44,978 bases of DNA. Origin: an uncultured Lachnospiraceae bacterium. Lineage in GTDB: Bacteria; Bacillota; Clostridia; Lachnospirales; Lachnospiraceae. The stretch spans positions 1 to 44,978 of the forward strand of contig CACZFF010000020.1 in the NCBI GenBank assembly GCA_902780385.1, in the 5' to 3' direction. The notes below the pieces were generated by a model. That model saw only the letters and a program-made list of their open reading frames with translations, searched no databases and was not told the origin of the DNA. Shown piece after piece: positions 9,137 to 44,978 of the stretch (position 1 is the first letter of the stretch; the number at the start of each line of letters is the position of its first letter). Position numbers and translations under genes: made by a program.

Positions 9137-10147
9137 ATGTATAATACGATTCAGATTAAAGCCGGTGAAGGCGGCTGGGGCGGCCCCCTTACGATCACAC
9201 CTACAGAGAAATGCCACACCGTCCTTTGCGTGACCGGAGGCGGTATCCACCCTGTAGCCCAGAAGATCGCTGATCTCACAGGCGGCGTAGCTGTTGACGG
9301 ATGGAAGACCACCCTTCCTGACGACGAAGTCATGATCGCGGTCGTTGACTGCGGCGGCACTGCCCGCTGCGGAGTTTATCCCAAAAAGAAGATCTTTACT
9401 GTCAACCTGATGCCCGTCGGCCAGTCCGGCCCTCTGGCAATGTTCATCAAACCTGAAATCTATGTCTCCGCAGTGCGTGAGAAAGACATTACTGTTGTCG
9501 GTGAGGAAGCCGCTGCAGCCGCTGCCGCACCTGCACAGGCGCAGCAGGCTCCCGCAAATGACGGATTCAAGACCAAGGAACAGGCCAAGGAAGAGATCCG
9601 CCAGGCAAATGAGGGCAAGAAACAGAGCATCGTCGTTACCATCGGCAAGGGCGTCGGCGAAGTTGTCAGCAAATTCTTCCAGGCAGGACGTGAGTCCATC
9701 GACATGGTGATTCGCAACATCCTGCCCTTCATGGCCTTTACAAGTACACTGCTCGGTATCATCAGTGCCAGCGGTCTGGGCGACATTATCGCCAACACGA
9801 TCTCCCCGCTGTGCGGCACGCTTCCCGGCATGCTCGTGATCTCACTGATCTGCTCGCTGCCCTTCCTGTCTCCGATCCTCGGCCCGGGCGCGGTTATCGC
9901 GCAGGTCGTCGGAACACTCCTGGGCGCTCAGTTTGCCGCCGGAGCCATTCCTGCACAGTACGCGCTTCCCGCTCTGTTCGCCATTGACGGACAGGTCGGC
10001 GCAGACTTTGTCCCCGTCGGACTCAGCCTCGGTGAGGCGGAGCCGGAGACAATCGAACTCGGTGTCCCCGCAGTCCTGTTCTCCAGGATCGTGACAGGTC
10101 CCGTCGCCGTGATCATCGCCTTCGTATTCAGTATCGGACTGTTCTGA
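9137..10147 (+). CDS. srlE: PTS glucitol/sorbitol-type EIIBC component
   Basis: A 336-residue EIIBC protein. The EIIB domain (about residues 1-125) starts with GEGGWGGPL and carries the phospho-cysteine region VVDCGGTARCGVYPKK (about residues 75-90). An Ala/Gln-rich linker (about residues 118-140) leads to the C2 membrane half (residues 190-336; SLPFLSPILGPGAVIAQVVG and GADFVPVGLSLGEAEPETIE are typical). It accepts phosphate from EIIA and passes it to the incoming polyol. It is 18 bp downstream of EIIC and close in length to E. coli SrlE. Confidence 0.93.
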   Translation: MYNTIQIKAGEGGWGGPLTITPTEKCHTVLCVTGGGIHPVAQKIADLTGGVAVDGWKTTLPDDEVMIAVVDCGGTARCGVYPKKKIFTVNLMPVGQSGPLAMFIKPEIYVSAVREKDITVVGEEAAAAAAAPAQAQQAPANDGFKTKEQAKEEIRQANEGKKQSIVVTIGKGVGEVVSKFFQAGRESIDMVIRNILPFMAFTSTLLGIISASGLGDIIANTISPLCGTLPGMLVISLICSLPFLSPILGPGAVIAQVVGTLLGAQFAAGAIPAQYALPALFAIDGQVGADFVPVGLSLGEAEPETIELGVPAVLFSRIVTGPVAVIIAFVFSIGLF

Positions 10148-13852: not shown

Positions 13853-15424
13853 TCAGTCCAGAAAGCGCACGCGCTCGAGGAATTCCCGGCTCCGGGTCTT
13901 TTCGCGGATGGTGTGAATGCCCGAGGAAATGACCCAGACGGCGATTCCCCTGCGGGCACAGAGGACCAGCAGATCGATGATCATTTCGTGGTAGATGGAT
14001 TCCTGCCCCAGGAATGGAAAAAGGCAGATGAGCACTTTCGGGTTCATGAGGTACCACTTGAAATAGGAGAGGCGGAGCCTTTCCGGCATGGACCAGGTGC
14101 TGATCGGTTTCAGCAGGGCATCTTTGTCAAACCATTCCGAGGATTCGTCGAGGATGCTGTCCATCAGGTGTTTGTGCAGAAAGTGCTTGCCGGCCTTGGG
14201 GATCAGGCTGGTGCTGAGGTTTTCGAGGGCGGACAGGTTGTCAAAAAGGACGCCGCCTGTGCGGTCCGGCATGGCAATCTGTACGGCAATCCTGCTGCCG
14301 ACCATCCTGCGCAGGTCCCGGCAGGAAACCGGCAGACCGTCCAGCAGGAAGATCCCGGAGTCCCAGTTTTTATTCCCCAGAAAACAGTCGCGGATGCAGG
14401 CGCCTGTGCGGTAGTTTTCATCCTGTAAAAGACCGATTTCTCCGCTGTCAAGTGAAAAATCGATCGGCGGCAGTCCATTGAAGGTCAGATTTGATAAGGT
14501 CAAAACGGATGTCTTGTCCATGGGGGCAGCAATTCGGAATGATTCCGTTGAAGTGTCTGCATCAGCAAACTGTACATGCCTTCTGTCAAAATAGAGATCA
14601 GACTTGCTGTCAGAATAGAAATTGAACTTGCCGCCGGGATTCTCAGGGTGTGTAAAAAAAGGAGATTGAAGCGCCCACTGTGTGCGGGAAAGCCTGCCGG
14701 GCTTCCATCCCAGAATATCGTATAGTCTGGAGCCGTATTCTTCCGGGTACAGGCGGTAGCTGAGGCGCCGGTTTTTAAAAATATCGATGCGGTCCGCATA
14801 CTGGAACAGAAAAGCTTCATCCAGTTCCATGAGGAAGACGGCAGTTCCGTGCTCCATGAGGAGGCGGATGCAGTCCATAAAGGGCCTGAGATCCTGCTGC
14901 CGAAGGATTTCCGTGATTCTGTCGAGTACGATGACCTGGGCGTGGGAGAGCCATGCCTTGAAGGCCGAAAGGCGGTAATAGTCAGGCATGGTCAGCGTTG
15001 TCAGAGGGGTATCCCAGTCAAAGAGAATGCCCATCTGCTGTCTGACTTCGTCTGCCTCTTTTGTAAAAAGTCTCTCTGCCTCTGCGTGCAGGCGGACCCG
15101 GCGCGCATTTTTGTCGAAAGCGCATACATAGTCGCGGGCGGTGAGCTCCTTTGCCTGAAAACGATTGCGGTCGATCACCATCGTGTTTTCCCGGATCCAG
15201 CGCATGATCTCAGAGTATCCTGTCCGCTCGCCGCACAGGAAAACTCTGCCGGATTCAATGCGGGTCTTCCCGGAAAAAATTTCCCGGAAGGCAGTTCCGG
15301 AAGTCCTGTGGTTGTCTACATAGATTCCGATCCCTTCCCCCTTGGACAGCATGATGTCAAAATGGTATTCCCTGCCCGCATTGACGAATATTCCGTTTTC
15401 GATTCGAATCAGTTCTTCAATCAT
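13853..15424 (-). CDS. ABC-ATPase-like pseudoenzyme next to a two-component system
   Basis: A 523-residue protein with the two-cassette layout of sugar ABC ATPases (RbsA/MglA) but without the catalytic motifs. In the first half the P-loop position reads GIYVDNHRTSGTAF (residues 33-46, no GxxGxGKS/T). The signature reads LTMPDYY (144-150) in place of LSGGQ, and Walker B reads VIVLDRI (164-170), lacking the Glu. In the second half the P-loop reads LLQDENYRTGACI (332-344) and the signature WSMPERLRL near residue 450. Helix and strand spacing, and phrases such as HAQVIVLD and ADRIDIFKNRRL, still follow the fold. ATG 15424 has AAAAGGA seven bases upstream. It is last in the order transporter, response regulator, kinase, this gene. 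A regulatory adaptor role is inference; the frame is intact, so it is not a decayed gene. Confidence 0.7.
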   Translation of the reverse strand: MIEELIRIENGIFVNAGREYHFDIMLSKGEGIGIYVDNHRTSGTAFREIFSGKTRIESGRVFLCGERTGYSEIMRWIRENTMVIDRNRFQAKELTARDYVCAFDKNARRVRLHAEAERLFTKEADEVRQQMGILFDWDTPLTTLTMPDYYRLSAFKAWLSHAQVIVLDRITEILRQQDLRPFMDCIRLLMEHGTAVFLMELDEAFLFQYADRIDIFKNRRLSYRLYPEEYGSRLYDILGWKPGRLSRTQWALQSPFFTHPENPGGKFNFYSDSKSDLYFDRRHVQFADADTSTESFRIAAPMDKTSVLTLSNLTFNGLPPIDFSLDSGEIGLLQDENYRTGACIRDCFLGNKNWDSGIFLLDGLPVSCRDLRRMVGSRIAVQIAMPDRTGGVLFDNLSALENLSTSLIPKAGKHFLHKHLMDSILDESSEWFDKDALLKPISTWSMPERLRLSYFKWYLMNPKVLICLFPFLGQESIYHEMIIDLLVLCARRGIAVWVISSGIHTIREKTRSREFLERVRFLD

Positions 15425-15453
15425 GGGAATCCTTTTTTCACTCTTTCCGACCA

Positions 15454-15598
15454 TGCCGCTCGTAAGAGCGGTATCCTGAAGCGTTTTCGCGTAGGCGAAA
15501 ACGGTGAAGAATCAGCGGAGCTTTGGGCCGTCTCGCGGCACAAAGCTCTGGAGTGAAAAATCTTGTATCGACAAGATTTTTCACTCTTCGTAACGAAG
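15454..15598. repeat. String of five consecutive hairpins
   Basis: Five inverted repeats in 145 bp. TGCCGCTC/GAGCGGTA has loop GTAA (15454-15473). CGTTTTCGC/GCGAAAACG has loop GTAG (15482-15503). GAGCTTTG plus GCCG pair with CGGC and CAAAGCTC (15518-15548). GAGTGAAAAATCTTGT forms a perfect 16-bp stem with loop ATCG (15551-15586). CTTCG/CGAAG closes the set (15586-15598). The 16-bp stem overlaps the histidine kinase stop codon and may also end or process its transcript. Confidence 0.85.
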
Positions 15599-22970: not shown

Positions 22971-23019
22971 AAAAAAGGATTGAGGAAAAGCATTTACAGC
23001 CTTTCCTCAATCCTTTTTT
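22971..23019. terminator. Bidirectional terminator
   Basis: A perfect 18-bp stem, AAAAAAGGATTGAGGAAA (22971-22988), with its complement at 23002-23019, giving T-runs on both strands. It serves the small peptide gene (plus) and the HPr-LDH gene (minus). Confidence 0.9.
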
Positions 23020-23157
23020 ACATTTTTCTTATCGTATTTCTTATCGTATCATCTCATATCATCATTTCAGAACTGCGCACCCGCAGTGAAACGGGTTTTG
23101 CAGGCCGCTGTCCGCACTTCCCGGCAGGGCGCGGGGGTGCGGGCGGTGAAGAAATCA

Positions 23158-24456
23158 TCAGATGACTTCCGCGGGACCGAAATCCAGCTGCTCGTTGAAG
23201 TTGCGGGCGTTCTCCATGGTGACGGCTGCGATCGCCTGCAGGGCCTCTCTGGTGAAGAAGGCCTGGTGGGAGGTCAGGATCAGGTTGGGGAACATGGTCA
23301 GACGCGCGACGATATCGGTGTCGATCATATCGTCGGAGCGGTCCATGTAGACGTTGGCATCCTCGCCCTCGTAGACATCCAGCGCGACAGCGTGGAACTT
23401 GTTGGCCTGCAGTCCCTTGATCAGGGCATCTGCGTCGATGAGGGGACCGCGGGAAGTGTTGACCAGCATGACGCCGTCTTTCATCATGTTGATGGCTTCC
23501 TCGTCGATCAGGTGATAGGTGCCGCCGTCGCCCATGATCAGGGGAGCGTGCACAGAAATGAGGTCGGCCTTTCTGAGGACATCTTCTTTGGAGGCATAAG
23601 TGAGGAGACCTTCCTCCTCAAGAGCCTTGTTGGGGAATGCGTCCCAGCCCATGACCGTCATGCCGTAGCCCTTGCAGATGCGGGCCATGATCTGGCCGAT
23701 GCGGCCGGTGCCCAGAATGCCGGCGACCTTGTTGTTGAGGTCGACGCCCAGCAGTCCGCTCAGGGCGAAATTGTTGTCCTTGACCTTGATATAGGACTTG
23801 TGGATGCGGCGGTTTGCAGCCTGAATGATGGTCATGGCATGCTCAGCGACCGCATAGGGGGAATAGGCCGGAACACGCAGGACCTTGATGCCGTATTCCT
23901 TTGCGGCTTCCGCATCGACGTTGTTGAAACCGGCGCAGCGCAGCAGGATCAGGCGGACGCCGCCTTTGGCGAGAACCTTGATGACTTCGCGGGGAGCTTC
24001 ATCGTTGACGAAAATGCAGACAGCGTCGAAGCCTTCTGCAAGATGGGCGGACTCGATGGTCAGTCTGCTGCTGAAATAAGTGATGTCTACATTGTAAGTT
24101 CCTTCGCCCTTGTCCTTGGAGAGTTCACTGAAGAAGAGGCGGTCATAATCTTTTGTGCCGTAGAAGGCGACGCGGAGAATATCGGAGGATTTGTCCTGGG
24201 GAGCGACTTCACTGAGAACACCCTGGATGATCTCAATGGCCTTGTCCTCGTCCGGACCTTCCGCGGTGATATTGAGAACGGAACCTTTTTTTGCCTGGAG
24301 GGCAAGAATCTGCAGGACATTCTTGCCGGAAGCCGTTTTCCCCTCATACTCAAGGGTCACGTTGCTCTTGATTCCGGTGCAGGCCTGTGCCAGCAGGGCC
24401 GCGGGACGGGCATGGATGCCGAGAGGATTTTTTACAGCGTACTGTAAGCTTTTCAT
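23158..24456 (-). CDS. HPr domain fused to D-lactate dehydrogenase
   Basis: A continuous 432-residue frame joining a PTS phosphocarrier to a dehydrogenase. Residues 1-88 are an HPr domain: His15 in NPLGIHARPAALL is the EI-phosphorylated histidine with its Arg17, and the rest (LEYEGKTASGK...KKGSVLNITAEGPDEDKA) matches HPr throughout. Residue 46, the HPrK target Ser in Firmicute HPr, is Asn. Residues 93-432 are a D-2-hydroxyacid dehydrogenase most like fermentative D-LDH (VPAYSPYAVAEHA). The NAD loop GILGTGRIG is at 246-254 with Asp272, and the catalytic set is Arg336, Glu365 and His397. ATG 24456 is preferred over 24462 because AAAGGA lies six bases upstream and His then falls at 15. It has its own promoter. 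The likely role is NADH-dependent pyruvate reduction under PTS phosphate control; regulation is inference. Confidence 0.92.
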   Translation of the reverse strand: MKSLQYAVKNPLGIHARPAALLAQACTGIKSNVTLEYEGKTASGKNVLQILALQAKKGSVLNITAEGPDEDKAIEIIQGVLSEVAPQDKSSDILRVAFYGTKDYDRLFFSELSKDKGEGTYNVDITYFSSRLTIESAHLAEGFDAVCIFVNDEAPREVIKVLAKGGVRLILLRCAGFNNVDAEAAKEYGIKVLRVPAYSPYAVAEHAMTIIQAANRRIHKSYIKVKDNNFALSGLLGVDLNNKVAGILGTGRIGQIMARICKGYGMTVMGWDAFPNKALEEEGLLTYASKEDVLRKADLISVHAPLIMGDGGTYHLIDEEAINMMKDGVMLVNTSRGPLIDADALIKGLQANKFHAVALDVYEGEDANVYMDRSDDMIDTDIVARLTMFPNLILTSHQAFFTREALQAIAAVTMENARNFNEQLDFGPAEVI

Positions 24457-24538
24457 ATGCATTCCTTTCCTGAAACAATGTAGAATATTTAATCGAAATA
24501 ATGTTACTGATTGAACAAAATTCTACCAATAATATTAT

Positions 24539-24567
24539 ATTATAATAGGTTAGCTTTGTTTAATCAA
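24539..24567 (-). promoter_or_regulatory. Sigma-A promoter of the HPr-LDH gene
   Basis: On the minus strand TTGATT (24567-24562), a 17-bp spacer and TATAAT (24544-24539). The predicted leader is about 75 nt. Confidence 0.8.
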
Positions 24568-24889: not shown

Positions 24890-26239
24890 TTATTTTCTGA
24901 TAGAAGGATTCAGGAGCAGGTTGCAGTCTGCGTCGTCCTTGATTCCGTTGATCCTGCCGCGGGAGGTAAACTGCCACATATCAAATTGTGTGGGAGCTGC
25001 CATCGTATCTGCGTGTGTCCAGACAGGAGATTTGGGCTTGTTGGTGCCCCAGTAGGCATACCAGGTGGCGTATTTGGTCAGTCTGGAGGGATTATAATAT
25101 TTGTTGTAGTAGGTCAGGTTGAAATAGTAACCTGCGCGGTAACCGCCGCCGGTGATCGTGCGGCAGAAGGCTTCGGTCATATCTGTGATCTTGGTCCTGC
25201 TGCTGACTTTGGTGTAGCGCATGGAGTCATATTCCCAGTCAAAGAAAACAGGAAGGTTGATATTGAAGGGCTTGATGACCGTCATGCAGCGCTTGGCTTC
25301 GTTGATCGCCTGTTTGGTGTTGGCAGCGTAGCTGAACCAATAGATACCGACAGAGAGGCCGGCTGCCTTGGCGTTCTTGATATTCTGGTAGAAATATTTG
25401 TCTGTGGTGCTCTTGCCGTATCCGGCGCGGATCATGACGGCACTGACACCGGCTGCTTTTACTTTATAGAAATCAATGCTTTTATTGTGCTCGGAGACAT
25501 CGATCACATGGGCATATCTGGAAGAAGCTTTAGCAGAGCCGGCAGAAGGACCGAGATTCTTCAGAAGCTTTCCGCCTTCATCGAACTGGTAGTAATTGTT
25601 GCCGATTTTCTGGCGCCCTGTCAGAATAGCGCCGATATGCGCCTTCTTGTTGCAGCTTGCGTAATACTTATTGCCGCCGGTGGTGAACCAACCGGTGACC
25701 ATGCGGCCCTGGGAATTAAAGAAATATTTCCTGCCGCAGATATTCCGGAAACCTGTCGCCACAGCTCCCTTGTAAGGAGAGGAGGAAAGACTGAGATAAT
25801 AGTAATAGTTCCCGATTTTTACGAGACCGGTCAGGATCTGTCCCATACCTTTTTCGCCCTGCACATGGCTGGCGAAATACGTCTTACCGCCGGTCCTGAA
25901 GAAACCGACTTTCATGTTTCCGTTTGAATCAAAGTAGTAAAGCTTTCCGTTGCGCTTTACAAAGCCTGTTTTGTAGGAGCCGCTGGAGGACTGCAGACGC
26001 AGGTATCCGCCGACCTTTTTCCATCTGGCTCCGGAGACATCTACAGACACGGGTGTTTCCGTACTTTCGGTAATGAACGATTCACTGCTGACCCCGGGTC
26101 CCGATGTTTTTCCTGTTTCCGCTGCGGATGCCTGAGCTGTTTCGTTTCGGACAGCAGCTCCGGCAGGCATACAGAGCATTCCTGCTGCCATCGTGAAAAC
26201 CAGGAAACCGGTGATCAGCTTTCTGAACTGAATTTTCAT
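24890..26239 (-). CDS. Secreted GH25 lysozyme with cell-wall-binding repeats
   Basis: A 449-residue secreted muramidase. A signal peptide (about residues 1-28, ending PAGAA) is followed by a Thr/Ser/Glu-rich linker. About seven choline-binding-like repeats come next (residues 85-225; units such as KTGFVKRNGKLYYFDSNGNM and VTGWFTTGGNKYYAS). The C-terminal GH25 domain covers about 240-449, with HVIDVSEHN at its start and the catalytic Asp/Glu in PVFFDWEYD. GH25 enzymes cut the MurNAc-GlcNAc bond of peptidoglycan. GGGAGGGTGT precedes the ATG. A cell-wall turnover or bacteriolytic role is likely; no phage genes are near. Confidence 0.93.
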   Translation of the reverse strand: MKIQFRKLITGFLVFTMAAGMLCMPAGAAVRNETAQASAAETGKTSGPGVSSESFITESTETPVSVDVSGARWKKVGGYLRLQSSSGSYKTGFVKRNGKLYYFDSNGNMKVGFFRTGGKTYFASHVQGEKGMGQILTGLVKIGNYYYYLSLSSSPYKGAVATGFRNICGRKYFFNSQGRMVTGWFTTGGNKYYASCNKKAHIGAILTGRQKIGNNYYQFDEGGKLLKNLGPSAGSAKASSRYAHVIDVSEHNKSIDFYKVKAAGVSAVMIRAGYGKSTTDKYFYQNIKNAKAAGLSVGIYWFSYAANTKQAINEAKRCMTVIKPFNINLPVFFDWEYDSMRYTKVSSRTKITDMTEAFCRTITGGGYRAGYYFNLTYYNKYYNPSRLTKYATWYAYWGTNKPKSPVWTHADTMAAPTQFDMWQFTSRGRINGIKDDADCNLLLNPSIRK

Positions 26240-38739: not shown

Positions 38740-41262
38740 ATGAAATCAGATCGATTCCGCGCTTTATTAAAACAATTGTCAGTTCTGACCAATTTCTGGC
38801 CGGCTGTATTGGTCGTCCTTGCGGTCGGGTTCGCTTTACCCCGGACCATTCCTGTGTTGAAAACACTTCCGGAACGGCTCATTCTGACGGAGGTAAATGC
38901 TGCAGAGGAAAAGCCTGCTCTGCCCGATCCGGAGGAGGAGACAGAGGAGAAGCTCGAGGATTCCGGTAATACCTATGAAGACGGTGTCTACACCGGATCC
39001 TCCAGCGGTTACGGGGGCAAAGTAACTGTGCAGGTGACCGTGATAGAGCACAAGATCACGGATGTATCCGTTTTGAGCGCTCCCGGGGAGACGGCAGAGT
39101 TTCTGGCAAAGGCAAAAGGAGTGATCAGCAGAGTCCTTCAGGCACAGACCTGGGAGGTGGATGTGGTATCCGGTGCCACCTACAGTTCCAGAGGAATTCT
39201 CGGCGCGATCCGGAATGCCCTCACAGGAGAAACGGTGGAAAATGAAGCGCCCCCTGAGAAAGAGGGCCCTGTTGCGCCCATTAAGAAGGTACCGTTTGAC
39301 GACAATGTCAAATGGAAAGACGGCGTGTATATAGGGAGCGCGCAGGGATACGGCGGGACCATCAAGGTGGAGGTGACGATCAGACAGGCTAAGATCGCAG
39401 CTATCCGGGTCCTTGATCATAGTCATGAAAGTGATTCCTATTTTAACAAGGCCAAAAAAGTCATCAGCAGGATCCTCAAAGCAGGAACCCCGAATGTGGA
39501 TACAATTTCCGGAGCAACCTACAGCTCGAACGGGATCATCAATGCTGTCAAAAATGCGCTGAAAAAGGCGGCAGGAGACTCTTCCGCGGATACGGGAAAT
39601 CCTGCGCAGAATCCTCCCAAAAACCCCGCACAGGATGACGGCACGGACCAGGAAGATCCCAATCTTGAAAACGGCCTGAAGGACGGAACTTATACGACGG
39701 ATGTCGTCTGCACGGACAACAATATTTTTGAATATACGATCCGGCTGACAATGCTTGTAAAAAACGGCAGGATCACTTCCCTGAAAGCCGTCCGGATCAA
39801 GGACCAGTCCGACAATCCCGATATGAACGCGACCTATCTGGGCTATGCGGTATCAGGACGTAAGGACGGTGGAAAAACCATGCCGGGAGTCATTGCGCAG
39901 ATTCTGAAGCTGCAGACGACAAAGGATGTGGACATTGTCAGCGGAGCCACCTATTCGTCAAAGGCTATTCTGCGGGGTGTCAAAACCATGCTGCGGCAGG
40001 CGGCCAAAAATCCGTCTGATAAAGAAGATGACGAAAACGATGAAGAGGGCGGAACGGAAAACGGTGATGATCCCGGAAAGACGGATCCGACTCCCCATGA
40101 AGAAGATGAAAATGGCGGAAACGAAGAAGAGGAAGAGGAGCCGGCAGCCGGTTATGGAGACGGAACCTACGTGGCCGAAGCGGACTGTATCGACCAGTCT
40201 GAAGATCCCTTGTTCGAATACACCGTAAAGACGACGATCGTCATTGAGAACGGAAAGATTGTTTCGATCGACGTGGAACGGATCAATGATAATTCGGAAG
40301 ATCCGGACAACAATACCATTTATCTCAACTATGCCGTAAACGGAAGGACACGGAAAGGAGTCGAATACAAGAGCATTATTTCCCAGATCCTTGATAAACA
40401 GGGCGCAGGGGACATAGACGTTGTTTCGGGTGCCACTTATTCTTCCAATGCAATCATAGAAAGCGTTACAAAGGCGCTCGCGGAAGCTGCGGAAGCCTAC
40501 AACCCTCCTGAAGAGGACGGCGGAGAAGGCAGCGGCACGGGAAATACCGGCTCCGAAGAAGGAGGAGAAGGAAGCAGCACAGGCAGCACCGGCTCCGAAG
40601 ACGGCGGAGAAGGCAGCAGTACTGGTAATACCGGCTCTGAAGACGGCGGAGAAGGCAGCAGTACTGGTAATACCGGCTCTGAAGAAGGAGGAGAAGGAAG
40701 CAGCACAGGCAGCAGCGGCTCCGAAGACGGCGGAGAAGGCAGCAGTACTGGTAATACCGGCTCCGAAGAAGGAGGAGAAGGAAGCAGCACAGGCAGCAGC
40801 GGCTCTGAAGAAAGCGGAGAGGGAAGCAGCACGGGCAGCAGCGGCTCTGAAGAAAGCAGCACGAGCAGCACCTCCGAAGAAGAAAAGAATACCAATAAGT
40901 ATCTCGATGGCACCTATTCGGCGACCGTAAAGTGTGAAGATTACGAGGATGACCCGCTTTTCACCTATAAGATTAAGGTGACGATCGTCATCAAAGACGG
41001 GAAGATCAAAGACGTCTCAGTCAAAAAGACAGATGATGATTCGGAGGACCCGGAGAGCAACGAACTCTACTTCGGCTATGCAGCCGATGGCAGGACCAAA
41101 AAGGGAAAGCATTATGACGGTATTCCCGATCAGATCATAGACCGTCAGTCTTCTTCCGGGCTGGATGCAATCAGCGGAGCGACATATTCCTCGAAGGCAA
41201 TGATCAAAGCGGCAGAAAAGGCTCTTTCCGATGCCGAAAATCCTGACGCGGACGGAAATTAA
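38740..41262 (+). CDS. Membrane-anchored surface protein with five FMN-binding domains
   Basis: An 840-residue protein. One N-terminal membrane helix (WPAVLVVLAVGFALP, near residues 19-33) is followed by five FMN_bind domains. Each ends in a covalent-flavin motif: VDVVSGATYSS (Thr147), VDTISGATYSS (Thr260), VDIVSGATYSS (Thr404), IDVVSGATYSS (Thr566) and LDAISGATYSS (Thr815). Domains 1-2 are short (about 80 residues) and domains 3-5 longer (about 110) with an extra acidic loop. Charged Pro/Glu linkers separate them; the fourth-to-fifth linker is eight 14-residue Gly/Ser/Glu repeats (594-705). In this family ApbE attaches FMN to the Thr and the domains shuttle electrons outside the cell. It is first in an operon with the next two genes. 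No apbE is in the window. Confidence 0.92.
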   Translation: MKSDRFRALLKQLSVLTNFWPAVLVVLAVGFALPRTIPVLKTLPERLILTEVNAAEEKPALPDPEEETEEKLEDSGNTYEDGVYTGSSSGYGGKVTVQVTVIEHKITDVSVLSAPGETAEFLAKAKGVISRVLQAQTWEVDVVSGATYSSRGILGAIRNALTGETVENEAPPEKEGPVAPIKKVPFDDNVKWKDGVYIGSAQGYGGTIKVEVTIRQAKIAAIRVLDHSHESDSYFNKAKKVISRILKAGTPNVDTISGATYSSNGIINAVKNALKKAAGDSSADTGNPAQNPPKNPAQDDGTDQEDPNLENGLKDGTYTTDVVCTDNNIFEYTIRLTMLVKNGRITSLKAVRIKDQSDNPDMNATYLGYAVSGRKDGGKTMPGVIAQILKLQTTKDVDIVSGATYSSKAILRGVKTMLRQAAKNPSDKEDDENDEEGGTENGDDPGKTDPTPHEEDENGGNEEEEEEPAAGYGDGTYVAEADCIDQSEDPLFEYTVKTTIVIENGKIVSIDVERINDNSEDPDNNTIYLNYAVNGRTRKGVEYKSIISQILDKQGAGDIDVVSGATYSSNAIIESVTKALAEAAEAYNPPEEDGGEGSGTGNTGSEEGGEGSSTGSTGSEDGGEGSSTGNTGSEDGGEGSSTGNTGSEEGGEGSSTGSSGSEDGGEGSSTGNTGSEEGGEGSSTGSSGSEESGEGSSTGSSGSEESSTSSTSEEEKNTNKYLDGTYSATVKCEDYEDDPLFTYKIKVTIVIKDGKIKDVSVKKTDDDSEDPESNELYFGYAADGRTKKGKHYDGIPDQIIDRQSSSGLDAISGATYSSKAMIKAAEKALSDAENPDADGN
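40519..40854 (+). repeat. 42-bp coding tandem repeat, eight copies
   Basis: Eight 42-bp units encode variants of GGEGSSTGNTGSEE. Codon differences group the units, suggesting expansion of pairs of units. It forms a flexible, charged spacer in the multi-FMN protein. Confidence 0.9.
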
Positions 41263-41740: not shown

Positions 41741-42646
41741 ATGGTTCAGCAAAACGAACAAGTGAAGAAACCGGTTCCTGCATCTGTAAAAAGGAAGACC
41801 GCAAACCGGAACAAAGCTTTGATGAGAGCGGCTTTACAGGTCCTTTTTTTCGTGACCATGCCGGGCGCATTCGTCGCTGGTTTTAACGGGATAAAATATA
41901 TTTTCCGCACGATGGGAACAGGAAGTGTCCTGGAAATAAACAGCTTTGCCATGGTGCTGATCGGTCTGGGCGGATTCACGCTGCTGTTCGGCAGATTTTT
42001 CTGCGGATATGTATGTTCCTTCGGAGCGCTTGGAGATCTGGTTTACTGGCTGTCCGGCCTTTTCCAGAAGAAAGTCCTGAAAAAGAGAAAGCAGTTTTCG
42101 CTGCCTAAACAGGCACTTCCGGTCCTGCAAAAGCTGAAGTACCTGAATCTTGCCTTCATTGTCCTTATGACAGCAGCAGGTCGGATGGAATCCCTGCACG
42201 GAACCAGCCCCTGGGACGTCTTTTCAAGGTTCACCGCCCTGAAACTGCCGACCGCTGACTATCTCCCCGGAATCATCTGCCTGATCCTGATTCTGATCGG
42301 GATGGCGGTACAGAGCCGGTTTTTCTGCCAGTTCCTGTGCCCGCTGGGCGCTTTCTTTGCCGTACTGCCGATCCTGCCCTTCGCGATGCTGCACAGAGAC
42401 GCCCCCAACTGCCTGAAAGGATGCTCCGCATGCAAAAACACCTGTCCTGTCGGATTAAAGCTGGAAACGGACGGTTTTAGAAACGGAGAGTGCATATCCT
42501 GCGGAAAATGCGCCGGAGTATGTCCCAAAAACAATCTTCAATATCCCGCAGCAACATTATTTAAAAACGATATTATCTACGTCCTCTTTCGGGCAGCTGT
42601 TTTTTTCGGGCTCGGTGTATGGCTTGGCCTGTGCCGCTTTTTCTGA
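41741..42646 (+). CDS. NapH/NosR-like 4Fe-4S membrane protein
   Basis: A 301-residue protein with about five hydrophobic segments. Paired cysteine motifs flank helices (GRFFCGYVCSFGALGD near residue 85; RFFCQFLCPLGAFF near residue 190). Two [4Fe-4S] ferredoxin motifs follow: CLKGCSACKNTCPVG near 226-240 and CISCGKCAGVCP near 251-262. It resembles the electron-transfer membrane modules NapH/NosR/RnfH-like that feed electrons across the membrane to flavin proteins. AAGGAGG overlaps the end of the preceding gene, indicating translational coupling. The donor (ferredoxin or quinol) is not shown. Confidence 0.88.
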   Translation: MVQQNEQVKKPVPASVKRKTANRNKALMRAALQVLFFVTMPGAFVAGFNGIKYIFRTMGTGSVLEINSFAMVLIGLGGFTLLFGRFFCGYVCSFGALGDLVYWLSGLFQKKVLKKRKQFSLPKQALPVLQKLKYLNLAFIVLMTAAGRMESLHGTSPWDVFSRFTALKLPTADYLPGIICLILILIGMAVQSRFFCQFLCPLGAFFAVLPILPFAMLHRDAPNCLKGCSACKNTCPVGLKLETDGFRNGECISCGKCAGVCPKNNLQYPAATLFKNDIIYVLFRAAVFFGLGVWLGLCRFF

Positions 42647-42672: not shown

Positions 42673-42873
42673 CTACTTTTTATCCCGAAGTTTTCCGGTG
42701 ACACGACATCGTTCGATCATTTTTGCAATCTCCTTCCGCTTGTGACTTCCTGTTTTAATACGAAAGACAGATTTGACACCAAAAAAGATAATCAGGACAA
42801 GAGTAAGGATTGCAAAAACAGCAGCACATATGAAACAGGTTGATGCTACAGAATTATAGAATTCAATTGTCAT
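42673..42873 (-). CDS. Small membrane protein coupled to the Ser/Thr kinase gene
   Basis: A 66-residue protein with one membrane helix (FICAAVFAILTLVLIIFFGV, about residues 14-33) and a basic cytoplasmic tail (about 34-66). Its ATG overlaps the kinase stop codon by four bases (42870-42873), so it is co-translated with the kinase. I do not recognise a family. It is convergent with the iron-sulfur gene, 26 bp apart. Confidence 0.7.
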   Translation of the reverse strand: MTIEFYNSVASTCFICAAVFAILTLVLIIFFGVKSVFRIKTGSHKRKEIAKMIERCRVTGKLRDKK

Positions 42874-44978
42874 ATATCCCCTTCTTCCTCCTCTGAATCT
42901 GCAGCATCAGGATTCACCTTGCTCGTGTTTCCAAAACAGTCATCAATGGAACCGTATGCCTTTGTCACATTGGATCTCACACGCTTAATTACCTCCAGCT
43001 GGTCAGGCGATGAGCTTTCCGCATTATTCATAAAGTTATTCGCACGGTCCAGAGTCTGAAGTATGGTATCTCTGGAGACGTTGTCATTCATGTAATTCAC
43101 ACAGTGAAGGTTGATCTCCGTCGCGATCGTATCGCAGATGCGGATCGGGTATCCGATATTGGTCTGGCTTTTCAGGGTGTCCAGCCGAATGGACAGATCA
43201 TCGAGAGTAGCCCAATAGTCCGCAAACTCATGCTCAAACTCGAATGTCTTTGTATCCCCGCTGGTCTTTTCGTAGAGTTCTGCCAGTCGGAGGATCAGTT
43301 CTGCCGATTCCTGTCTGTCTGCTTCGAGGCCCCCGGTTTCGACAGCTTCATTCAGATAACTGATCGATGCACCCTGCCCGCTGGGATATACGAGATAGAC
43401 CAGCGTACCCAGACGGAAGTTGAAATCGGAATAAGTTGCTGCATCCCTGTCATTCAAATATTCAATGTTGCGCTTGCGGCTGTCCGGATCATAATCCACT
43501 CCGTTTATACAGTCTGTGATACTGTTATATGCAGCGATAAATTCATTATCTGAAAGACTGTCAATGTCATCGATCAATCCCTGATATGCTTCAGGATTTC
43601 CTGGATCCAGATTGATGGCTTTTTTATACATTTCTGCTTTCTGTGAAAAGTCAAAGCACGCTGCGGCTGACTGAACATACTGCTCATAAAGTTGTTTCTG
43701 CTGATTAACAGTTATACTTTTGCTGACTCCCACGGCCAGAGCCATCAGCAGTGCCAAAATTCCACAGACAAGGAGAGTTTCCCGTAATCTGTTTCTGCGT
43801 TGTATGGTGGAATCATCTATCTTCTGGACATGTTCCAGTGCATACATCAATTCGGAACAGTTCTGATATCTTCCGGAAGGATCCGGTGTGCAGCATTTTT
43901 TGATGATCTTCTCGATGCCGCTTCCCTGAAGATGCGGAGCAGCTGCTCCTACAGGATACATCCCGCCTTTTGTTATCACAGGACTCTTTCCTGTAAGCAG
44001 TGTGTACATAGTTGTACCGAGTGCATAGATATCTGTTCTTCCGTCTAAACGAGTCTGATTTCTGAACTGTTCCGGTGCTGCAAAACTGATATCCTTATTC
44101 CTCGTGTTATCTTCTCCGGCATGATACACATCTTTCAGTATGACACTGCCATCAAAACAGAGGACAACATTGTCTGGACGTAGCCTCTGATAAATGACCG
44201 GAGGTTTTCTGCTATGAAGATAAGCCAGTGAATTACAGATTTGTTTCGCCCACTTAATGACTTTATCTGGACTCTGCGGTCCCTGAATACGTAGCATTTC
44301 CTGTAAGCTGATATTTCTGTCAGACGGATTTTTTTCACTGGATGAGCTGCCTTGATTTACGGGACGCTTGGCTTGAATCTTCTGCTGATTTTTCTCAGAA
44401 GGTTCTTCTGCAGTTTTTTGTTTTCGCTGAGAGCCGGCAGCTGAGGAATTGCTTTCTCTTTCAATCGCTTTAAGGGCTTCCTGGAACTGCACTGCAGTCT
44501 GATACCGTGACGCGGGGTTTGCCTCAAGAGCAACTCTCAGTACATTCCAGATTTGTCTGCTCCCATTTTCCGGGGCAGGAAGTGCCTCCCCTGCAAGTCT
44601 TCTTCTTTGGGCTGAATCCACCTGTTCCCTGGACACTTTACCGGCAGGAAGGAACGGTTCTCTACCATTGTTTAAAAAGCGGTAAAGAACCAGAGCCAGA
44701 GAATACACATCTGATCTGGCATCTGTATTCTGCATAGCAAAAGTTTCCGGCGCCATATAGGAAATTGTGCCCTTAAAGGAAAGGACATTTCTGCTTCCGG
44801 CCACAGATCGGGAAATGCCAAAATCCCCCAGTTTAAAAAATCCATGATTATTTACAAAGATATTCTGAGGTTTAATATCTCTATAAAGCGGAGCAGCAGA
44901 GTACCACATCCATAGGAGCCAGTGCACCGCATGGTTGTGGGTGAATGCCAAAGGAAACTTACTGGTTCCGGATGTAAT
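42870..44978 (-). CDS. Membrane Ser/Thr protein kinase with a second degenerate kinase lobe (5' partial)
   Basis: The frame stays open to the window edge, so the N-terminus, including the Gly-loop and Lys, is missing. About 700 residues remain. First comes a PknB-like C-lobe with catalytic YRDIKPQN, DFG in KLGDFGISR and APE in YMAPETF. A charged Lys/Glu/Ser linker follows. A second C-lobe-like region has YQRLRPDN where HRDxKPxN is expected and KDVYHAG at the DFG position, but intact AAPEQF and DIYALGTTMYTLLTGKSP. No second N-lobe is visible. Then a membrane helix (LLVCGILALLMALAVGV) and a long extracellular helical region of TPR type (KAINLDPGNPEAY) lead to an acidic tail. Its base composition looks more A/T-rich than the neighbouring genes. 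The second lobe is probably a pseudokinase. Confidence 0.85.
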   Translation of the reverse strand: MTSGTSKFPLAFTHNHAVHWLLWMWYSAAPLYRDIKPQNIFVNNHGFFKLGDFGISRSVAGSRNVLSFKGTISYMAPETFAMQNTDARSDVYSLALVLYRFLNNGREPFLPAGKVSREQVDSAQRRRLAGEALPAPENGSRQIWNVLRVALEANPASRYQTAVQFQEALKAIERESNSSAAGSQRKQKTAEEPSEKNQQKIQAKRPVNQGSSSSEKNPSDRNISLQEMLRIQGPQSPDKVIKWAKQICNSLAYLHSRKPPVIYQRLRPDNVVLCFDGSVILKDVYHAGEDNTRNKDISFAAPEQFRNQTRLDGRTDIYALGTTMYTLLTGKSPVITKGGMYPVGAAAPHLQGSGIEKIIKKCCTPDPSGRYQNCSELMYALEHVQKIDDSTIQRRNRLRETLLVCGILALLMALAVGVSKSITVNQQKQLYEQYVQSAAACFDFSQKAEMYKKAINLDPGNPEAYQGLIDDIDSLSDNEFIAAYNSITDCINGVDYDPDSRKRNIEYLNDRDAATYSDFNFRLGTLVYLVYPSGQGASISYLNEAVETGGLEADRQESAELILRLAELYEKTSGDTKTFEFEHEFADYWATLDDLSIRLDTLKSQTNIGYPIRICDTIATEINLHCVNYMNDNVSRDTILQTLDRANNFMNNAESSSPDQLEVIKRVRSNVTKAYGSIDDCFGNTSKVNPDAADSEEEEGDI

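Follow-up and report, generated by a model that had tools for sequence, protein, structure and literature searches.

A recurrent fusion of HPr and D-lactate dehydrogenase in Lachnospiraceae and other bacteria, and its possible role as a PTS-linked switch

The window, by which we mean the whole stretch of 44,978 nucleotides analyzed from an uncultured Lachnospiraceae bacterium, carries on its minus strand a gene in which an HPr domain precedes a D-lactate dehydrogenase (D-LDH). The gene and the signals around it are as follows.

23158..24456, minus strand: HPr-D-LDH fusion gene, 432 aa plus stop, with a further in-frame ATG 6 bases upstream at 24462
24464..24471, minus strand: putative ribosome-binding site AGGAAAGG, assigned from the sequence
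24539..24567, minus strand: sigma-70-type promoter-like site TTGATT-17-TATAAT, 10 of 12 matches
22971..23019, no strand assigned: terminator-like 21-bp hairpin downstream of the fusion, flanked by T and A runs

No break interrupts the minus-strand frame from either ATG down to the stop at 23158, and a start at ATG 24462 would yield 434 aa. We take ATG 24456 as the start, because the spacing from AGGAAAGG (7 bases, against 1 base to ATG 24462) suits the inner ATG only and because most relatives start there. Counted from this codon, His15, Arg17, Asn46, Arg336, Glu365 and His397 all stand at the positions named in the original prediction, whose central claim, a single uninterrupted frame comprising a complete HPr and a complete D-LDH, is borne out by the 432-aa frame and its Pfam content. 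That the gene should have its own promoter is also plausible: the candidate at 24567-24539 is legible by eye in the close relatives L005, L054 and L055, and the 2-kb region holds six promoter-like sites against a shuffle mean of 1.9. The downstream hairpin is stable (-32.4 kcal/mol, z -8.8); a consensus terminator scan lists no terminator. Judged from these signals, with a promoter-like site upstream and a hairpin downstream, the gene looks monocistronic.

Opposite nearly the entire fusion gene runs an antisense open frame of 453 aa (23086-24447, plus strand); similar frames occur opposite the fusion gene in 28 of 37 loci, and this one is most likely a codon-usage shadow. Redox control by Rex was considered as a feature of the family and rejected, since no site is conserved across 45 upstream regions. 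Scored against the Rex operator consensus, a candidate upstream of the fusion in the window (TTGTTCA-N4-GTAACAT) agrees at 11 of 14 positions (shuffle p 0.04). Sites with 12 of 14 matches (p 0.01 or less) occur in four of the 45 regions (L019, L020, L023 and L025), one common site being shared by L020, L023 and L025.

No partner gene, PTS genes included, is conserved across 37 loci in flanking stretches reaching up to 6-7 kb; setting aside the fusion gene and its antisense shadow, the widest shared neighbor cluster reaches 7 of the 37. Just upstream of the fusion lies a GH25 lysozyme-like protein with choline-binding-type repeats (24890-26239, minus strand), a similar protein being present in 7 of 37 loci, the window among them. 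The same contig carries a sorbitol-type PTS EII gene (EIIBC-GUT, 9137-10147), so that the organism probably uses PTS sugars. Elsewhere in the window, five FMN_bind stretches occur in an 840-aa protein (38740-41262) that lies near a 4Fe-4S (Fer4_5) protein (41741-42646), and the two may form a flavin-based electron-transfer unit. A 533-aa protein (13853-15454) without a Pfam match, weakly similar to sugar ABC ATPases of the RbsA/AraG type, adjoins a histidine kinase and an AraC-type response regulator; it may be a degenerate ATPase with a sensory function. Finally, a 693-aa protein with protein-kinase domain matches is encoded at 42870-44951 (minus strand).

For the protein itself we collected 55 distinct full-length fusions, the titled records among them coming mostly from Lachnospiraceae or Erysipelotrichaceae. 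Its parts, with the residues found across this set, are listed below.

24205..24456, minus strand: HPr domain, residues 1-84 (Pfam PTS-HPr; PDB HPr chains; AF2 secondary structure E-H-E-E-H-E-H)
24412..24414, minus strand: codon of His15, the HPr phosphorylation site, invariant in 55 of 55
24406..24408, minus strand: codon of Arg17, invariant in 55 of 55
24319..24321, minus strand: codon of Asn46, at the regulatory Ser46 position (Asn in 44, Asp in 8, Ser in 2, Glu in 1 of the 55)
24181..24204, minus strand: linker, residues 85-92, of nearly fixed length family-wide
23161..24180, minus strand: LdhA-type D-lactate dehydrogenase domain, residues 93-432 (Pfam, solved relatives)
23449..23451, minus strand: codon of the LDH catalytic Arg336, invariant in 55 of 55
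23362..23364, minus strand: codon of the LDH catalytic Glu365, invariant in 55 of 55
23266..23268, minus strand: codon of the LDH catalytic His397, invariant in 55 of 55

The PTS-HPr match scores 82.5 bits against a curated cut-off of 23 (Pfam; residues 7-83 when numbered from ATG 24462, that is, two higher than here), and solved HPr chains in the PDB match this half, best 3le1 and 1rzr. In an AF2 model of the fusion built from 48 sequences (mean pLDDT 83.5, pTM 0.71), residues 2-83 follow the HPr order of strands and helices (beta-alpha-beta-beta-alpha-beta-alpha) and the LDH runs from residue 94 on; the Foldseek matches listed belong to the LDH half, and the HPr fold is called from the order of secondary-structure elements in the model. 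By block, pLDDT is 84-93 over residues 1-80 and 69 in the linker block 81-90; with this less certain linker and a pTM of that size, the model says nothing on the relative placement of HPr and LDH. The segment from position 81 to 95 measures 14 residues in 53 of the 55 fusions and 15 in the remaining two.

In the second half, Pfam recognizes 2-Hacid_dh (96.8 bits) and 2-Hacid_dh_C (144.2 bits), both over cut-off, and these together with PTS-HPr and a marginal, overlapping NAD_binding_2 make up the Pfam content of the protein. NCBIfam D-LDH models, which may not cover LdhA-type enzymes, score under cut-off (vanH_gen 201.5 against 540 bits, PRK12480 174 against 579, PRK08605 166.5 against 356). 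The nearest solved relatives are the D-LDHs of Fusobacterium nucleatum, Escherichia coli, Salmonella and Pseudomonas aeruginosa, and by Foldseek the LDH domain shares 41-43% identity with the F. nucleatum (5z21), E. coli (5z1z) and P. aeruginosa (5z20) structures. The fusion has the catalytic Arg/Glu/His and the NAD-binding GxGxxG of LdhA-type D-LDHs, the latter reading GTG(R/K)IG, and on these sequence grounds D-LDH activity is very likely. According to an excerpt of PMC4230899, the D-LDHs of F. nucleatum, E. coli and P. aeruginosa are tetrameric and allosteric, with pyruvate, oxamate, FBP and Mg2+ as effectors. The F. nucleatum enzyme also accepts 2-ketobutyrate (same excerpt), so that a substrate other than pyruvate is possible for the fusion.

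In order to follow the architecture beyond the window, six peptide patterns of the fusion protein were scanned against a genome collection in which 84,980 species are represented by a single genome each, an approach that finds close relatives only. The 48 loci found comprise 36 fusions (one cut by a contig end), five stand-alone Blautia D-LDHs at about 51% identity, and seven archaeal dehydrogenases. Isolates and MAGs are both represented among the 36, and named carriers include [Eubacterium] cellulosolvens LD2006, Bilifractor porci, Lactimicrobium massiliense and Erysipelotrichaceae bacterium 7770_A6, along with the Lachnospiraceae isolates NK4A144, MC2017 and KH1T2. Counting the window's own genome each time, the fusion is present in 17 of the 37 same-genus genomes, in 13 of 397 sampled genomes and 13 of 334 genera of the family, and in 3 of 398 sampled genomes of the phylum, the other two belonging to one genus of another family. 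In that second family as a whole it occurs in 9 of 189 genomes and 6 of 30 genera. Carriage is patchy yet spread over at least two families.

The original prediction had named an assembly error merging two genes as a danger to its reading, and recurrence across independent genomes rules this out. All fusion rows listed in the genus, family, phylum and second-family surveys have no internal stop; with the fusion in 36 of 48 independent loci and in 17 of 37 same-genus genomes, we regard an assembly or frameshift artefact as excluded, its probability being close to nil. An origin from phages or plasmids was likewise rejected: the fusion peptide patterns had no match in viral contigs; all 2736 matching plasmid records lie below 60% identity, the 10 listed begin no earlier than query residue 80, and in seven plasmid records a single place spans at least 80% of the query; in 62 phage records no place reaches 80% query coverage.

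The HPr halves of all 55 fusions form one group (SH-aLRT 91 by a quick method, on 82 weakly resolved columns), which sits beside 24 of 27 ptsH-type rows, the other three lying nearer the Crh-like clade. The LDH halves, too, all 55 of them, fall into a single group (99), although long branches leave the order of the outgroups unsure. Because each half forms one clade, the simplest view is that the fusion arose once. Across the 55 fusions, HPr and LDH pairwise distances are correlated (Pearson 0.77), as would be the case if both halves had travelled together.

A vestigial HPr domain, drifting after an accidental fusion, would fit one observation: the HPr half evolves about twice as fast as the LDH half (mean pairwise distances of 0.438 and 0.217). 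However, the median dN/dS amounts to 0.067 in the HPr half and 0.032 in the LDH half (54 usable pairs out of 67 close ones, involving 32 of the 55 sequences, with several dS values close to saturation), His15 and Arg17 are kept in every fusion, and the architecture occurs in six genera of the second family; drift of this kind is therefore extremely improbable. Eight HPr columns are invariant (G13, H15, A16, R17, P18, A20, A23 and E70), seven of them at positions 13-23 (hypergeometric P 5.6e-7, indicative only, as the sequences are related), whereas E70 is invariant also in ptsH-type and Crh-like rows. A further set of eight fusion loci, which come from seven second-family genomes and were compared over the HPr half only, likewise retains both H15 and R17. 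This pattern indicates that the phosphorylation site of the fused HPr is under very strong constraint, and phosphorylation by EI appears likely.

The invariant His15 motif and the phosphocarrier-type placement in the tree would also suit an ordinary extra phosphocarrier for sugar uptake, to which the LDH is attached as a passenger without regulatory link. Against this, a stand-alone HPr is already present in all 14 carriers outside the genus and in the window's genome, and the linker is short and nearly fixed in length, which together make an additional carrier rather improbable.

The residue at position 46 requires separate treatment, as the original prediction had seen in its replacement the loss of control by HPrK. 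Asn46 is indeed present and, with Ser46 absent from the fused HPr, HPrK control of that domain is unlikely. This loss is, however, no peculiarity of the fusion: the EI-linked HPr of the same genome has Lys46, and two of the 55 fusions and a third fusion locus, L188, keep Ser46. Four HPr proteins are encoded in the window's genome. The copy adjacent to EI (C9:20315; EI at C9:19796, an EIIC-EIIA gene lying upstream) reads H15/K46, the one 3.1 kb from HPrK (C9:58981; HPrK at C9:62357) is Crh-like and reads E15/S46, and a copy on C19, located 0.7 kb past an EIID gene, reads D15/T46. A split between EI-linked His15/Lys46 and Crh-like Glu/Asp15/Ser46 proteins is seen in the window's genome (C9 and C19; loci L001, L002 and L004) and in related genomes.

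A sample of 60 distinct stand-alone HPr rows, consisting of better-scoring HPrs with fetched loci and thus no census, gives 37 with His15 (position 46: Lys 18, Ser 15, Arg 4) and 23 without (Ser 22, Thr 1). The 37 divide into 27 ptsH-type rows with HARP (Lys 18, Ser 5, Arg 4) and 10 rows of an HLRP class, all with Ser46. This class, which combines the active site HLRPAGILC with Ser46, forms one strongly supported clade (L082, L085, L088, L089, L094, L095, L097, L142, L151 and L152, of which L142 has the variant HLKPAGTLC). The Crh-like rows form one clade (98) and have lost His15 in 22 of 22; they were chosen by a motif containing Ser46, and only their His15 loss is a finding. The fusion follows a wider division of labor, in which HPr is of phosphocarrier type and Ser46 is often on another protein; because the loss of Ser46 fits this division, Asn46 alone is no sign of a new mode of control. 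Crh-like proteins are usually described from Bacillus. Among the papers listed from the open-licence PMC literature, no account of such a functional split of HPr in Lachnospiraceae was found; a related paper, available as an excerpt, concerns the Crh of B. subtilis (PMC12291648).

Asn or Asp at position 46, along with residues kept in the fusions and not in ptsH-type HPr (Q24, C26, A42 and Q49 among others), could point to an HPr role independent of phosphorylation, be it as a structural or oligomerization module or as the binding site of another regulator. Such a role leaves unexplained why invariance is focused on G13, H15, A16, R17 and P18, and the Crh-like paralogues, which have another job, did lose His15 throughout; we consider it unlikely.

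EI is found in 28 of 31 carriers, 14 of 17 within the genus and 14 of 14 outside it. The three same-genus carriers without a match (G012, G021 and G032) are 73-88% complete, so that true absence is possible but unproven. HPrK is present in 15 of the 17 same-genus carriers. The frequency of EI would also fit a tethering role, in which HPr docks the LDH on EI, the reaction of EI liberates pyruvate from PEP, this pyruvate is reduced where it is made, and phosphorylation only times docking and release. The docking surface for EI, which in other HPr proteins we take to be helix 1 plus the patch at 47-53, is kept (A20 and A23 invariant; V47, L48 and L53 in 98% of fusions). Yet docking does not in itself require an invariant His15, and EI may be too scarce to serve an abundant LDH; tethering is accordingly a minor possibility.

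A Ldh_1_N protein (L-LDH/MDH) over cut-off is absent from 10 of the 14 carriers outside the genus; it is present in 14 of 17 same-genus carriers, where the fusion therefore need not be the sole LDH, and in 9 of 12 same-genus non-carriers. Stand-alone LdhA-type enzymes (45% identity or more) occur in one of 31 carriers and one of 12 non-carriers, and D-hydroxyacid dehydrogenases of weaker similarity (32-36%, with E at or below 1e-40) in several genomes, the window's included. In 8 of the 14 outside carriers there is neither a Ldh_1_N protein nor a second LDH-domain match at E 1e-40, and the fusion there may be the sole NAD-dependent LDH recognizable by both searches. This status need not apply to the window's own organism.

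Taken as a whole, the protein can be described as a fermentative, allosteric LdhA-type D-LDH whose phosphorylatable N-terminal HPr serves as a regulatory input reading PEP/pyruvate, a description that we consider about as probable as its opposite. By analogy, an HPr held close to an allosteric enzyme would most simply be a switch read from EI. In E. coli, HPr has been reported to bind and regulate PykF, PfkB, NagB and Adk (excerpt of PMC8167557, citing Rodionova 2017), and in B. subtilis unphosphorylated Crh inhibits methylglyoxal synthase (excerpt of PMC12291648). In the switch that we propose, EI charged by PEP would phosphorylate His15 of the fused HPr, whose phosphorylation state would therefore track the PEP/pyruvate ratio. 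Inflow of PTS sugars would drain phosphoryl groups and leave HPr unphosphorylated and the LDH active, converting surplus pyruvate and NADH to D-lactate; when sugar is short and PEP/pyruvate high, His15 would be phosphorylated and the LDH restrained. Lacking Ser46, the fused HPr would stand outside HPrK/CcpA control. An effect of HPr on LDH activity is plausible, and so is its sign; that the unphosphorylated form is the active one we infer from its accompanying high sugar flux. Such an effect would give the direct link between PTS state and pyruvate reduction that the original prediction suggested. The specific proposal that the LDH is switched in cis by covalent PTS phosphorylation, EI writing PEP/pyruvate onto His15 and thereby setting the rate at which pyruvate, which EI itself produces, becomes D-lactate, is tentative, and we place it somewhat below an even chance.

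Several observations weigh on the other side of this switch. Asp46 (8 of 55) or Glu46 (1 of 55) could mimic phosphorylation of Ser46 and, in the manner of S46D HPr, make phosphorylation by EI slower. The patchy carriage and the lack of a conserved adjacent PTS gene count against it, as does the low lactate of the carrier Bilifractor porci, given in an excerpt of PMC7738495 as 0.4 mM, under a detection limit of 0.8 mM, with the glucose of the medium unused.

The fusion combines two known families and is both real and conserved. Descriptions of PTS control of metabolism usually invoke transport, CcpA, or loose binding of HPr to enzymes. If the switch is true, the fusion would offer an unusually clear example of direct PTS action on the end step of a fermentation, by a PTS-gated enzyme independent of HPrK/CcpA and fixed in several gut lineages, including some without another recognizable NAD-dependent LDH. 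Sugar supply may then directly switch lactate production in the gut bacteria that carry it, which bears on how Lachnospiraceae and Erysipelotrichaceae of the rumen and gut form D-lactate, a compound of importance in host acidosis. Since sensor and enzyme reside in a single protein that can be purified, the idea is open to a direct test.

That no HPr-LDH enzyme had been described, as originally supposed, agrees with our search of the open-licence PMC literature, in which none of the titles and abstract beginnings listed deals with an HPr-lactate dehydrogenase fusion; subscription papers and domain-architecture databases lay outside its scope, and the architecture may have been noticed earlier. 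The terms 'HPr domain' and 'D-lactate dehydrogenase' met in one paper only, PMC8745565, where the excerpt available uses them apart.

Comparison with known systems sets the fusion between several of them. Solved LdhA-type chains, unlike the fusion, are about 330-360 aa long and without HPr. With HPr (PtsH) the fused domain has in common the fold, His15, Arg17 and the hydrophobic patch at 47-53; it differs in its dehydrogenase partner, in Asn or Asp instead of Ser46 in 52 of 55 fusions, and in forming its own clade. Crh resembles the fusion in its HPr fold and in acting on metabolism and not on transport (excerpt of PMC12291648), but it has lost His15 and kept Ser46; the fused HPr, which is the reverse, was rejected as a Crh on this ground. 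Multiphosphoryl transfer proteins (FPr/FruB, DhaM and others) likewise contain HPr within a longer protein, and there it is paired with PTS domains such as EIIA and EI (excerpt of PMC2405797), whereas the partner here is a metabolic enzyme; since the fusion has no EI or EIIA domain over the Pfam cut-off, this identity was rejected too. The E. coli HPr reported to act on PykF, PfkB, NagB and Adk is a precedent for HPr acting directly on enzymes of central metabolism; it is a separate, dissociable protein, with LDH not among the targets named in the excerpt of PMC8167557, while in the fusion the HPr is joined covalently to the enzyme.
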